From: Elusimicrobiota bacterium
GTDB lineage: Bacteria; Elusimicrobiota; Elusimicrobia; Elusimicrobiales; UBA9959
NCBI GenBank assembly: GCA_016209085.1
Contig: JACQWV010000027.1
Span: 22,997-63,050 of the forward strand
Direction of reading: 5' to 3'
DNA: 40,054 nt
Shown: positions 15,715 through 30,254 of the stretch, piece after piece
How positions within the stretch are numbered: position 1 is the stretch's first letter
Layout of the letters: each line of letters begins with the position of its first letter
Position numbers and translations under genes: made by a program
Notes under the pieces: generated by a model
Told to the model about the DNA's origin: nothing
Database searches by the model: none
The model's input: only the letters and a program-made list of their open reading frames with translations

Positions 15715-18063
15715 TCAAAAATTGCTCCAGTCGGTTTCAGGCTCTTTCTTTTGAGGAAAGTCTGCGTTGCAAAACTGCCCGAGCGGGACTTCCATGAAAA
15801 GCGGTCTTTGCGTCATCGGCGTTATTTCTCTTAAATCAACTCCCTCTGCTTTAAATGCCGAAAGAATTATTGAATTGCAGGTTTTTGCTCCGCACGAGCC
15901 CATGCCTGCGCGGGTGACGGCCTTGAGCTGGTTAATATCTCTTATCCCTGATTTTATCGCCTTTCTTATTTCTCCCAACGCAACCCTTTCGCACCTGCAT
16001 ACCATCGCTTCATCATTCATGCCTTTACTGAGCTTCGCAGAAATAATGGATACGCTGGCTGAGCCGACCCCGCACATGATGCGGGGCAAGGAACGAGGAG
16101 CGCGCATAACTTGGGTTATGTAAGCGACGAGTGACGCAGTCGCAGCCGAAAAGCGGCCAACGTGCCCATTATTTCTGCGAAGCTCAGTAATATCCGTCTG
16201 TCCGGTTTTCCCCGGTTCAAAATCAAAAAATTTTACAGAAGCAATTTTATCTGCAATAGTTTTATCTGCTTTTAAAGTTATTATCTGCGTGTTTTCAGCC
16301 GCAAAATCCCTGATTTTAACGACTTGGGCGGTCCCGAGCAGATTTCCCTTCTCGTCCACAGTTTTTACGACATCCCCGTTTTTAATAATTTGTTTTTTCA
16401 TTTCTAGCGGAATTGAAATAAAAGGCATGTCTTTGTCCTGCCTGCAATCCACGAGCGTTACGGCAAGAGCAGGGCAGATGACAAGACATTTCAGGCATCC
16501 TATGCACTCCCCGTCAAAAACAGGAACGGACATTATGTTTTCAGAAACGAGTCTTATGGATTTTTTGGGACAGACCGTCACGCACGGGTTGCACGGAATT
16601 TCCTGCCTGCAGTGCAAAACAGGATACACCGCCACGTCATACCGACATGGTGTGAGACTTTTTTGCTTTTTGGCGGAATGCGGATGCGTTTTGCCTGGTT
16701 TGGATTTCAAAACTTCAAGTTTTTTATACCAGAAATCCGGAACGTCCGGCGACATTATTCCGAGAGCTTTTAAAACCCTGTACGCGGTAATTTTTCCGCT
16801 GAACATGGCGGCTGACGCCTCTGCTATCTCCTCGGCGTCCCCGCAGACAAAAGCGTTCATGCCGAATTCTTTTGCCATAGAATAAAGCTCGCTTACGGGA
16901 TTCAACCCGACTGCGATAAGAAGGGTATCTATTTTGAACGTTTTTTCACTGTTCTTTATTGGTTTGAAATTTTTGTCAACCTGCGCTATGGTGACGGATT
17001 CCACGATGTTCCGGCCGTCTGCCCTCAAAACCGTATGGGAAGCGTAAACCGGAACCCCCAGTCTTTTGATTTTATCCGCATGAACTTTATACCCGCCGGG
17101 TTCAGGCAGCGCTTCTGCAACGCCAAGAACCTTTATGTCCGCCTGAAGAGCATGATACGCCGCTATCAGGCCCACGTTGCCGGCCCCTACCACAAAAAGT
17201 TTTTTTGAAGGTCTCACCAGATCCCTGTTGACAAGAGTCTGGAACGCCCCTGCGCCGTAAACGCCGGGAAGAGTGTTCCCGGGGAAAACAAGGGATTTTT
17301 CTCTTGCCCCGCACGCAGCGACAAGCGCTCTGGGCTTTACCAGACAATAGCGGCCGTTTACGACTATCCCCGCTTTCTTATCGGAAAAAATTCCCACGCA
17401 CACTGCGTTCAGCCACGTTTTTACGGAAGAAAATTCTTTCAACTGCTCCTCCAGCTTGAGCGCGATGTCAATCCCCCTTGTGCCTGCCCAGCAGTCTTCA
17501 ACCGAGCCGAAAAACTTATGCGTCTGCAAAACCAGCTTTCCTCCCAGCCTGTGCTTGTCGTCCGCGAGAATTACCGGCACGTTCATTCTGCCCAACTCAA
17601 TCGCGGCGCTCAGGCCGCTGGGCCCTCCGCCTATAATCAGGACGTCTGTTTCAATTTCTCTTACACCCGCGATTTCCGGCCGCTCGCAGAGCTCGCGGCG
17701 CCGATTGCGGGCAATGCCGCCTTGTTCCGGCAGCCCTGTGTCTGCGGCAAGGCGGCCAAGGCCATTCAAAGCGTTTATTTTCATCCCGCTTCTGATTTTG
17801 GTCACGCAGGCCTTTACTACGAGCCCGTCCGAGACTACCGCGCACTGGCTGCACTGGCCGTTGGCGCAGAATATTCCCTGCGGGGAGCTGTCTTTGTGGT
17901 GGACGCTGAAAACCCTGACGCCGTTCGCAAAAAGCGCGCTTGAAATGACTTCGTCTTCAAACGCTTCCATCTGTTTCCCTTCAAAAGAAAAAATTATTTT
18001 TTTTCTTTCCGGAATCTGAAGGACCGGATGTTCATTAATTCTGGAAGTTGTATTACTGGACAT
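15715..18063 (-). CDS. Large iron-sulfur/NAD(P)-FAD subunit of an amine or imino-acid dehydrogenase, with two in-frame repeat insertions
   Basis: 782 residues. The N-terminal [2Fe-2S] ferredoxin-like domain has Cys 66, 71, 74 and 86. It is followed by a two-dinucleotide flavoprotein domain: VLIIGGGPSGLSAAIELG near 141 and KLFVVGAGNVGLIAAYHAL near 290. A two-cluster ferredoxin insert (CNPCVTVCP and CIGCLKCLVICP, roughly 480-550) comes next, then a C-terminal BFD-like [2Fe-2S] domain (VCRCE ... SCGAKTC, near 690-735). The order matches sarcosine oxidase alpha / HcnB fused to ferredoxin, so electrons probably pass from the small FAD subunit to NAD(P) or a ferredoxin. Two repeats lie inside it: a 51-bp element (residues about 112-128) and a 160-bp TIR element (residues about 626-679). 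Both keep the frame. Confidence 0.88.
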   Translation of the reverse strand: MSSNTTSRINEHPVLQIPERKKIIFSFEGKQMEAFEDEVISSALFANGVRVFSVHHKDSSPQGIFCANGQCSQCAVVSDGLVVKACVTKIRSGMKINALNGLGRLAADTGLPEQGGIARNRRRELCERPEIAGVREIETDVLIIGGGPSGLSAAIELGRMNVPVILADDKHRLGGKLVLQTHKFFGSVEDCWAGTRGIDIALKLEEQLKEFSSVKTWLNAVCVGIFSDKKAGIVVNGRYCLVKPRALVAACGAREKSLVFPGNTLPGVYGAGAFQTLVNRDLVRPSKKLFVVGAGNVGLIAAYHALQADIKVLGVAEALPEPGGYKVHADKIKRLGVPVYASHTVLRADGRNIVESVTIAQVDKNFKPIKNSEKTFKIDTLLIAVGLNPVSELYSMAKEFGMNAFVCGDAEEIAEASAAMFSGKITAYRVLKALGIMSPDVPDFWYKKLEVLKSKPGKTHPHSAKKQKSLTPCRYDVAVYPVLHCRQEIPCNPCVTVCPKKSIRLVSENIMSVPVFDGECIGCLKCLVICPALAVTLVDCRQDKDMPFISIPLEMKKQIIKNGDVVKTVDEKGNLLGTAQVVKIRDFAAENTQIITLKADKTIADKIASVKFFDFEPGKTGQTDITELRRNNGHVGRFSAATASLVAYITQVMRAPRSLPRIMCGVGSASVSIISAKLSKGMNDEAMVCRCERVALGEIRKAIKSGIRDINQLKAVTRAGMGSCGAKTCNSIILSAFKAEGVDLREITPMTQRPLFMEVPLGQFCNADFPQKKEPETDWSNF
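16025..16190. mobile_element. MITE-like element with 25-bp perfect inverted termini, inserted in frame
   Basis: The 25-nt segment at 16025-16049 (TTACTGAGCTTCGCAGAAAT...) is the exact reverse complement of 16166-16190. Between TA dinucleotides at each end lies a 160-bp body (16028-16187). Body plus one TA duplication equals 162 bp, which is 54 codons. Internal stems include CCCCGCA/TGCGGGG, CATAAC/GTTATG and GCGAC/GTCGC. It carries no gene of its own. Its sequence is fully translated within the iron-sulfur oxidoreductase on the minus strand, without a stop. TA duplication and short inverted termini are typical of Tc1/mariner-IS630-type derivatives. Confidence 0.85.
17674..17730. repeat. 51-bp coding repeat, copy A (inside the iron-sulfur oxidoreductase)
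   Basis: Bounded by direct TTCCGG hexamers 51 bp apart. The body contains CTCGCAG, GCTCGCGGCGCCGATTGCGG and CAATGCCGCC. It is about 92% identical (four differences by eye) to copy B at 28275-28334. The host gene reads it antisense relative to copy B, yielding the segment QGGIARNRRRELCER between the N-terminal [2Fe-2S] domain and the flavin domain. Confidence 0.85.
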
Positions 18064-18118: not shown

Positions 18119-18259
18119 TATAGCCTTGCATAATTATCGTTGCATCACATCGGGATCTGTAGGGGCTTGATTTATCAAGCCCGTTTTCAATGGGTGCGAT
18201 GAATCGCACCCCTACATAATAACGTTCAGAATATGTCGCTTTATTTATGCAAGGCTATA
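18119..18259. mobile_element. TIR element (141 bp) that terminates the RHS gene
   Basis: TATAGCCTTGCATAA at 18119-18133 is exactly repeated in inverse at 18245-18259; the ends again read TA. The element contains the 59-bp palindromic repeat (18158-18216) nested inside. The right terminus supplies the TAG stop (18255-18257) of the RHS frame, so the insertion truncated that gene. It has no coding capacity. It fills most of the 191-bp gap upstream of the iron-sulfur oxidoreductase. Confidence 0.8.
18158..18216. repeat. 59-bp palindromic repeat, copy 1
   Basis: Ends are TGTAGGGG and CCCCTACA. It contains two nested hairpins: GGGCTTGAT/ATCAAGCCC and GGGTGCGAT/ATCGCACCC. It differs from copy 2 (27969-28027) at only a few positions in the spacer and one loop. 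It is nested inside the 141-bp TIR element. Confidence 0.9.
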
Positions 18260-27954: not shown

Positions 27955-27968
27955 AATATTTATAAATT

Positions 27969-28027
27969 TGTAGGGGCTTGATTTATCAAGCCCGTCTTAG
28001 ATGGGTGCGATAAATCGCACCCCTACA
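27969..28027. repeat. 59-bp palindromic repeat, copy 2
   Basis: Same ends (TGTAGGGG ... CCCCTACA) and the same two hairpins as copy 1 at 18158-18216, with changes in the spacer (CGTCTTAGATGG against CGTTTTCAATGG) and in one hairpin loop. It occupies most of the 89-bp purC-purS gap, is not inside a larger TIR element here, and ends 16 nt before the purS ATG. Confidence 0.92.
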
Positions 28028-28043
28028 TGATGGCATTTAAATT

Positions 28044-28565
28044 ATGATTATTGAAATCTGGATAAAAGACAAATACGCCAAAAACGAGGAAGCGGATATT
28101 ATCGCAAAGCTGGCGCATGCCGGAGCAAAACCGGCTTTTGCCAAAATTTCCCGTCTTTACCGGGTTGACGGTGATTTTGAAAAAAAAGATTTTAAGAAAA
28201 TAGCCGAAGAGATTTTGATTGACCCCGTAACCGAAGAATATTCTCTTGCAGCCCGCAAACTAAAAGGAAAAAATCTGTTCCGGCCACTCGCAGTGCTCGC
28301 GGCGCCGATTGCGGACAATGCCGCCCTGTTCCGGGTTGAAATCTGTCTTAAGGACTCTATAACGGATGTGGTCGGCGAAAGCGTAAAAGAAACAATTGCC
28401 GACGTCATTGATAAAAAACCCGGAAACGTAAGATTCGGCCATGCCTATTATTTTTCTATTGATTCGGAGCGCAAACTCAAACATGCGGTTTCAGAAGTCC
28501 TTATAAACGAGTTGATACACACCTTCCGCATTACTGAGCTTCTGCAAAGCTCAGTAATGCAGTAA
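28044..28565 (+). CDS. purS: PurS-like FGAM synthase subunit (two-lobed), with an in-frame 51-bp repeat
   Basis: 173 residues, about twice a minimal PurS. The first lobe (MIIEIWIKDKYAKNEEADII ... LYRVDGDFEKKDFKKIAEEILIDPVTEEYSL) and the second (VEICLKDSITDVVGESVKETIADVI ... VRFGHAYYF) each look like a PurS-type unit, together resembling the N-terminal domain of long PurL. The joint between them (residues about 78-97) is the 51-bp repeat, read as RPLAVLAAPIADNAALFR. The last 12 residues (RITELLQSSVMQ) come from a palindromic repeat. PurS bridges PurL and PurQ; both genes lie downstream at 31-34 kb. No strong SD is visible. Confidence 0.82.
   Translation: MIIEIWIKDKYAKNEEADIIAKLAHAGAKPAFAKISRLYRVDGDFEKKDFKKIAEEILIDPVTEEYSLAARKLKGKNLFRPLAVLAAPIADNAALFRVEICLKDSITDVVGESVKETIADVIDKKPGNVRFGHAYYFSIDSERKLKHAVSEVLINELIHTFRITELLQSSVMQ
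28275..28334. repeat. 51-bp coding repeat, copy B (inside purS)
   Basis: CTGTTCCGG occurs at 28275-28283 and again at 28326-28334, 51 bp apart. The intervening segment matches copy A at 17674-17730 with about four differences. It is translated on the plus strand here, and in the opposite sense in copy A. Its length (17 codons) keeps the frame. Confidence 0.87.
28528..28560. repeat. Palindrome with 160-bp-element termini, at the purS/feoB 3' ends
   Basis: A perfect 14-bp stem (GCATTACTGAGCTT / AAGCTCAGTAATGC) with a 5-nt loop. On the minus strand the sequence TACTGAGCTT-TGCAGAAG matches the first ~18 nt of the 160-bp element termini (TACTGAGCTTCGCAGAAA) with about two mismatches. It therefore looks like the two ends of that family joined after loss of the body. 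The feoB stop TGA (28551-28553) lies inside it. It may also act as a transcriptional stem between the convergent genes. Confidence 0.75.
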
Positions 28566-30254
28566 ATTAAGCAAAGCGCCAGCAAGGACGGCGGTAAACA
28601 ACATCAGGGAAACAATCTTTAAGGCGTTTTTTATTCCCGATTCTTTTGACAGGGTAAAAAACGTCGCAATGCACGGAAGATACAGGACCATGAATACGGA
28701 AGCGACGACAAGCTGCTTTGCGTTCAAATCAAACGGCGCAAGCAGGGCTATTGAAACGTCTTTCCTTAAAAATCCCAGCAGCATGACTGAAATCGTCTCT
28801 TCGGGAAGACCCAGAATGCTTACAACCGGCCGGCCCAGGCTGCGGGCCATAAAATCCGTTACGCCAAGAGCGTCCAGGACGCCGACTATAAACACGCCCA
28901 GAATTATCATCGGCGCCGCCTCCATAAAATAAGCTTTCAGCCGTATCCACAGTTTTTTTGCCAGCGTGGGGACATGCGGCATCCTGTAAGGCGGAATTTC
29001 CAGAAACAATTCCGGCGTTTCGCCTTTGATTAATTTATTAAGAGCAAAACTGGTTGATACGGATATAAGGAAAAGCAGTAAAAATATCGCGAGGAGACAT
29101 CCTGTTCCGTGCGGCGCGATCAGGCTCATAATCATGGCTGTCTGCGGTATGCAGGGCGCCATCATAAGAATCAAAACAGCGGCGATTATCTTTTCCCTGT
29201 CGCTTTCCAGGATGCGCAGGGAAAGTATTGCGGGAACTTTGCAGCCGAACCCCAGAATTACGGGTATTGACGCATATCCGTGAAGACCCATTTTGTGGAA
29301 TAAAAAATCCAGAAGAACTGCCGCGCGCGGCAGGTATCCGATGTCTTCCAGAGCGCTCAGTATCAGATAAAACGCCGCTATATACGGCAGGACGACTGCC
29401 AGAGGAATGTATATGCCGGTGGTCAATAAACCGAATGACTCCATGACTTTTGGAGTTGTTCCAAGAAGGATGTCCTGTAAAAATTTAACAGGCAGAATCG
29501 TATTTACTGCGTTAACGATCAACGGGTAATAAAGTTTATTAAACAAAGGGTCCAGAATGTAATTTATCAATCCCTCGCCGATAAACCTCACTGTTTTAAA
29601 AGTCAGAAAAAGAATCAGCAGGGCAAAAGGTATGCCGGTTAACGGATGCGTGGATATTTCTTCCAGTTTATCAAGAAAAGTGTGATGCCTGTGAGATAAT
29701 TTCTGCACGCGGCTCACGATGCCGCCTATTTCCAGCCATTTCTCCTCTTCCTTGTAGTCATAGGTCTTTGATTTTGTAAAAGGCAATCTCTCCACTAGTT
29801 CTTTTATGCCTTCTCCTGTTAAGCCGCAGGTGGGGACAACCGGCGCGCCCAGTATGTTTTCAAGTCCTTTTGCATCAATGCGAATTCCCAGATGTTTTGT
29901 CTCATCCCAGAAATTCAGCGCCGCAATAACCGGCGCGTTCTGTTTAAGCAATTGCAGAGTAAGTCCCAGATTCCTTTCCAGGTTTGTGGCGTCTACCACG
30001 TTGATTATTGCGTCGCCGCCCTCATTACTGATCATGTCAACCGCGACTTTTTCCGCTTTTGAACACGGCTCCAGAGTATACGTTCCGGGAATGTCTATAA
30101 TTTCAAATTTTCCCCCTTTTATCAAGAGATATCCTCTGGTAAATTCAACCGTTGTCCCCGGATAGTTTGAGGTGATTACGTTTATGCCGGTCAGATGGGA
30201 AAAAATCGCGCTTTTGCCGACATTGGGATTGCCTACAAGCAGTATTCTGCGCAT
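28551..30254 (-). CDS. feoB: Ferrous iron transporter FeoB
   Basis: 567 residues, shorter than E. coli FeoB (773). The GTPase is at the N-terminus: G1 GNPNVGKS (residues 8-15), SNYPGTTVE (G2), DIPGTYTLEP (G3) and LNFWDE (G4). The membrane domain has two gate repeats with GFGCKVPAI and APHGTGCLLAI; the Cys-containing motif fits iron passage. About 8-10 hydrophobic spans follow residue 200. The final residues LHY and the stop derive from a palindromic repeat. It is transcribed with feoA and fur from a Fur-box promoter and converges on purS with a 15-nt overlap. Confidence 0.96.
   Translation of the reverse strand: MRRILLVGNPNVGKSAIFSHLTGINVITSNYPGTTVEFTRGYLLIKGGKFEIIDIPGTYTLEPCSKAEKVAVDMISNEGGDAIINVVDATNLERNLGLTLQLLKQNAPVIAALNFWDETKHLGIRIDAKGLENILGAPVVPTCGLTGEGIKELVERLPFTKSKTYDYKEEEKWLEIGGIVSRVQKLSHRHHTFLDKLEEISTHPLTGIPFALLILFLTFKTVRFIGEGLINYILDPLFNKLYYPLIVNAVNTILPVKFLQDILLGTTPKVMESFGLLTTGIYIPLAVVLPYIAAFYLILSALEDIGYLPRAAVLLDFLFHKMGLHGYASIPVILGFGCKVPAILSLRILESDREKIIAAVLILMMAPCIPQTAMIMSLIAPHGTGCLLAIFLLLFLISVSTSFALNKLIKGETPELFLEIPPYRMPHVPTLAKKLWIRLKAYFMEAAPMIILGVFIVGVLDALGVTDFMARSLGRPVVSILGLPEETISVMLLGFLRKDVSIALLAPFDLNAKQLVVASVFMVLYLPCIATFFTLSKESGIKNALKIVSLMLFTAVLAGALLNLLHY

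Follow-up and report, generated by a model that had tools for sequence, protein, structure and literature searches.

The analysed stretch of 40,054 nucleotides from an Elusimicrobiota genome, hereafter called the window, carries two convergent genes, feoB and purS, whose ends overlap within a short perfect palindrome. A much longer repeat element, whose tips resemble the palindrome, is found in the same window inside an oxidoreductase gene. The features concerned are the following:

15715..18063, minus strand: gene of an FAD-dependent oxidoreductase (2Fe-2S, 4Fe-4S and BFD domains), which bears the full element in frame
about 16026..16189, no strand: full element copy, TA + 160 bp + TA, with 35-bp terminal inverted repeats; 54 codons in frame in the FAD/Fe-S oxidoreductase gene
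28044..28565, plus strand: purS, tandem two-domain form, 173 aa (Pfam PurS); last residues (about TELLQSSVM) from the remnant and its flanks
28528..28560, no strand: 33-bp perfect palindrome with 14-bp arms and a 5-nt loop, supported by a shuffle test
28528..28531, no strand: GCAT, outer arm, probable host target site (emptied: GCAT-TA-ATGC), absent from the element tips of other copies
28532..28533, no strand: left TA, probable target dinucleotide (complete copies are TA-flanked, and single-TA joining restores both stops)
28534..28554, no strand: element remnant of 21 bp (fused left and right tips), which together with both TA makes the 25-bp form
28555..28556, no strand: right TA, probable duplicated target dinucleotide, on the same evidence as the left TA
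28557..28560, no strand: ATGC, second outer arm, probable host target site, likewise absent from the element tips of other copies
28551..30254, minus strand: feoB, 567 aa (Pfam FeoB_N, Gate and FeoB_C), with its TGA at 28551-28553 inside the remnant

An earlier note, made from the DNA letters, had placed the feoB TGA inside the palindrome and had purS reading through it, which is borne out by the ORF coordinates and by Pfam. The purS frame crosses the whole palindrome and stops at 28563-28565, ending 5 bases past it. According to its relatives, PurS is here a tandem of two PurS units, of which Pfam scores the second only. Two further repeats touch the same gene. A second repeat of about 57 nt, present in the window at 28278-28334 and 17674-17730 and at about 35 places in the genome, lies in frame within purS (between the two domains) and within the oxidoreductase gene, and relatives are without it at both sites; at other places it is arrayed in tandem with a period of 51 bp (17 codons), in some cases inside long ORFs (C108, C47, C138, C140). 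Directly upstream of both genes bearing these in-frame repeats there is an 81-nt repeat (GTAGGGGCTTGATTTATCAAGCCCG...GGGTGCGAT.AATCGCACCCCTAC; window 18155-18235 and 27966-28046), the two copies of which are 85% identical.

The palindrome reads GCATTACTGAGCTT-CTGCA-AAGCTCAGTAATGC, and direct reading at 28528-28560 gives exactly the 14-bp perfect arms that had been noticed before. It is the only perfect inverted repeat of the window with arms of at least 14 and a loop of at most 10. Arms of at least 14 did not occur in any of 40 first-order Markov shuffles of the window, and arms of at least 11 occurred 0.175 times per shuffle. These shuffles rule out a chance origin, together with the count of a strict form of the palindrome in this genome and the comparison with genomes of the same family, both given below. 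With gathering thresholds, an Rfam scan of the window gave no hit.

On the minus strand, the 25-bp core of the palindrome is TACTGAGCTTTGCAGAAGCTCAGTA, which consists of two fused element tips, TTACTGAGCTTTGCAGAA + GCTCAGTAA. The tip TTACTGAGCTTTGCAGAA is identical to the element of the window at 17 of 18 positions and at all 18 to several element copies of the T variant. The proposed match to the ends of the 160-bp element is thus confirmed and is longer than had been stated, since the similarity extends over 18 nt and not just over the 10 of TACTGAGCTT. The outer GCAT and ATGC are absent from the other element copies, which points to the host target site as their source; the 14-bp arms would hence be composed of 4 bp of host and 10 bp of element (TA included). 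The emptied target site, GCATTAATGC, is itself palindromic.

In the genome, which comprises 2.35 Mb in 140 contigs, about 40 places match the family of the parent element. The complete copies measure 160-340 bp and share the tip CTGAGCTTCGCAGAAATAAT, the tips being conserved across copies, and they are flanked by TA in 17 of 18 cases on one side and in 14 of 18 on the other (the 18 tip pairs were found by script, and one of them is probably spurious). In the window copy, the 35-bp arms of the inverted repeat are 91% complementary. Relatives of the oxidoreductase are without the 54 residues encoded by the element, and after removal of 162 bp (the insert and one TA) the protein aligns without a gap to most of them at the insertion point, which identifies the full copy at 16026-16189 as a true insertion. 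With its terminal inverted repeats, duplicated TA target, many copies, small size and lack of a transposase gene, the element has the features of a TA-targeting MITE, as known from the IS630/Tc1-mariner type. A transposase with these ends was not found in a search with one transposase profile of the fragmented assembly. The sole candidate is a broken IS630-type gene with a sub-threshold DDE_3 match and runs of N inside (C14:22920-23111), and no element tips occur in its surroundings; a link of the element to IS630 would be one of resemblance only. Matches to the element, mostly to its inner part, occur in 27 of the 59 genomes compared (this one and those of the same family), which indicates that the family is old. 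The inner 72 bp (window 16087-16159) often occur without the tips and reach about 90% identity among several genera of the family, a conservation above that suggested by a decaying MITE.

How the insertion affected feoB and purS can be judged from the emptied site. Since no relative sharing the feoB-purS junction turned up, the empty site is a reconstruction. When the flanks are rejoined at one TA, purS has 167 aa and ends in ...FRINAVN-TAA, and feoB has 566 aa and ends in ...NLLH-TAA; rejoining at a single TA thus restores the reading frames at both window copies, the palindrome and the full element. We also considered two other forms of insertion. An insertion of the whole 33 bp would have left a purS of 162 aa and a feoB of 576 aa, and a 25-bp insertion without TA duplication would turn both frames into run-ons of 219 and 593 aa, compared to 167 and 566 aa under the TA model; both were rejected. 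The PurS proteins of most relatives end three residues past the aligned isoleucine (FKIEKC and similar), and the ends of FeoB vary among relatives by a few residues. Because the single-TA rejoining gives near-normal ends, both genes probably ended at this place beforehand. Since then, the end of feoB would have changed from ...NLLH-TAA to ...NLLHY-TGA, which adds one residue, and that of purS from ...FRINAVN to ...FRITELLQSSVMQ, which makes a new tail of ten residues after the isoleucine and a net gain of six. Judged from these reconstructed frames, the element probably edited ends of feoB and purS that were already there. The earlier wording, according to which the element provides the gene ends, hence stands only in part: it now holds the feoB TGA and the purS tail, but the single-TA rejoining gives both stops. 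In several relatives a purL-like frame follows directly after purS on the same strand, so that the convergent layout with feoB may be a derived rearrangement.

The fused form is not restricted to this locus. A search of the genome, which had been suggested as a check, found the same 25-bp fusion at two further loci, at C57:1648-1672 and, with 2 changes, at C28:23502-23526. Pattern searches revealed additional short forms, namely TACTGAGCTCAGTA twice (C2, C108), TACTGAGCTTTGCTCAGTA once (C122), a 17-bp form TACTGAGCTT(C/T)GCAGTA three times (once in C139, twice in C38) and a tip-only form, in which the left tip ends in ...CAGAAATA(A), four times (C2, C67, C42, C108). A 16-bp form at C28, TACTGAGTTTTCAGTA, has no clear microhomology, and about four isolated tips fall outside every class. 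The strict form TACTGAGC...GCTCAGTA occurs at 5 sites in this genome versus zero control matches, and none of the matches listed in 58 further genomes of this family has it, so that the palindrome is not seen to be kept in these relatives; the loose pattern TACTGA...TCAGTA occurs in these 58 genomes at about the level of the reversed control. Two other kinds of repeats carry related ends: C95:14203-14237 (TACTGAGGCAAACATAATTTATGTTTGCCTCAGTA) is a long palindrome with related ends and a different body, perhaps the scar of a sister element, and several loci hold a composite repeat, made of an element tip or short form with (G)GTAAATCCTCACT(A/G)A after it.

To relate the short forms to a possible deletion process, every joining of at most 25 bases of one tip to at most 25 of the other was enumerated. 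Among the resulting 448 distinct products, the match at the junction is 0 bp in 329, 1 bp in 80, 2 bp in 32, 3 bp in 6 and 4 bp in one. Junction matches of at least 3 bp are thus limited to 7 products (1.6%), which correspond to four strand-symmetric classes, and all four are present in the genome with 2-4 copies each, although only one of the four tip-only copies has the third matching base, which in that class depends on the flank. Counting distinct products only (n=9, including four that fit no class) and three firm classes of at least 3 bp, we obtained a conservative P of about 3e-4, which is indicative since the test was designed after some of the short forms were known. Because all four classes with high microhomology are present, the best reading of the short forms is that of copies with an internal deletion, made by slippage between short repeats, and the set of scars suggests that the element decays mainly through deletions between tiny matching sequences. 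The copy in the window fits such a scar in that both ends are kept, the inside is lost and a short direct repeat lies at the junction (2 bp if both tips were of the T variant, otherwise 3 bp).

Taken together, we consider it quite probable that a TA-inserting MITE went into the stop codon of feoB, suffered an internal deletion and left the palindrome as its scar, with the ends of both genes edited. This reading is based on the identity of the tips, the recurrence of the form, the TA flanks, the spectrum of microhomologies and the effect on both reading frames, all of which can be read from the letters of one draft genome. As to the order of events, we infer that a MITE copy would have inserted at the TA within the TAA stop codon of feoB, which would also have been the coding 3' end of the convergent purS. 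A deletion between 2-3 bases shared by the two inverted-repeat tips may then have removed the inside of the element, presumably via slipped mispairing across the hairpin formed by these tips, i.e. by the nearly precise excision route of Tn10. The remaining 25 bp would have altered the feoB stop and the purS tail. The suggestion that the palindrome is an internally deleted relative of the element accordingly gains support from the 18-nt tip match, the two further loci and the microhomology at the junction.

The same recurrence could also be explained if the 25-bp foldback were itself mobile, with one ancestral deletion giving a minimal element that inserted at C24, C57 and C28. The identical junction at three unrelated loci, with TA at or near both ends, would fit such a scenario. 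However, 14-bp, 17-bp and tip-only forms recur as well, and two of these classes are almost wholly without one tip and should hence hardly be movable by a transposase, while the ranking by microhomology accounts for all recurrent classes together; we regard the mobile foldback as improbable. Its extension to a still-movable minimal element, which spreads by itself and settles at convergent ends as a stop-plus-stem cassette for both genes, appears more doubtful still. An assembly artefact, in which two ends of the repeat were joined and the part between them was left out, might be suspected in a draft of 140 contigs with several element copies at contig ends. But assemblers work with words much longer than the 2-4 bp overlap at the junction, the form is found together with its flanks at three loci and both ORFs are intact and of the expected length, which makes such an error very improbable. 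Least credible is an operator or other protein-binding palindrome unrelated to the element. The half-sites TACTG and CAGTA are present and resemble those of LexA, but their spacing varies from 4 to 15 bp, several sites are situated at gene ends or in genes, and further inward the bases agree with the element tip over 18 nt; the operator was dropped for its variable spacing.

A different question is whether the palindrome serves as a terminator, as the earlier note had put forward. The RNA stems predicted on both strands are strong (-22.1 and -26.1 kcal/mol, z about -7). However, neither strand shows the T-run that comes after the G+C-rich stem of an intrinsic terminator, and the palindrome is not among the terminators found by the scan, so that the proposal is left without support. 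A bidirectional terminator or a 3'-end mRNA stem under selection would be compatible with the scar as a later use of it. The position at the ends of two convergent genes could be taken in its favour, and a 17-bp scar is likewise located between the stop codons of a second convergent pair (C139 near 17098), but remnants elsewhere are located shortly before gene starts (C57, C38) or within genes (C2), and we consider such a selected role rather unlikely. Many remnants are close to gene ends or starts, as is expected of tolerated insertions. Most likely the scar is functionally neutral, although the putative RNA stem may stabilise or protect the 3' ends of both convergent transcripts.

A MITE scar is known in kind, and the interesting part is the ladder of scars. 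For a single MITE family, the whole ladder of predicted products (14, 17 and 25 bp and tip-only) seems to be kept in one genome, and with all products of highest microhomology present, the decay route of a bacterial MITE becomes directly testable. The case also shows how two head-on genes can have their ends rewritten by a scar, in one the stop codon and in the other the tail, while both stay intact. In laboratory assays, nearly precise excision is known to leave scars. In this process, described for Tn10 and Tn5, the inside of the transposon is lost between short direct repeats in its ends and a small symmetrical scar remains. The scars described here are similar in that an inverted-repeat element lost its inside between short direct repeats and left a small scar, but the process is deduced from a natural set of MITE scars with repeats of 2-4 bp. 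Work on a Tn10-related transposon is cited in PMC12524634. Within the literature covered, a search on slipped mispairing in precise excision found nothing, and a search on prokaryotic MITE deletions at microhomologies returned only a study of aphid mariner elements (PMC5490172). These MITEs show internal deletions with microhomology at the breakpoints as well, for which abortive gap repair was proposed, but they are eukaryotic and their products are much longer (PMC5490172).

Among bacterial MITEs, the TA-flanked RUP/IS630-Spn1, Correia/NEMIS and ERIC elements are small, present in many copies and form stable RNA stems (PMC2229807). The present family shares with them terminal inverted repeats, TA ends, multiple copies and the lack of a transposase gene (PMC2229807), but differs in its tip CTGAGCTTCGCAGAAATAAT, in its remnants of 14-25 bp and in that no mobilising transposase was found. 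The Rickettsia palindromic elements are small repeats that have inserted in frame into genes for conserved proteins (PMC10969869, PMC2229807). In this behaviour they can be likened to the full copy at 16026-16189 and to the 57-nt repeat of purS, which also sit in frame, whereas the palindrome of the window alters the reading frame in the last codons of purS.
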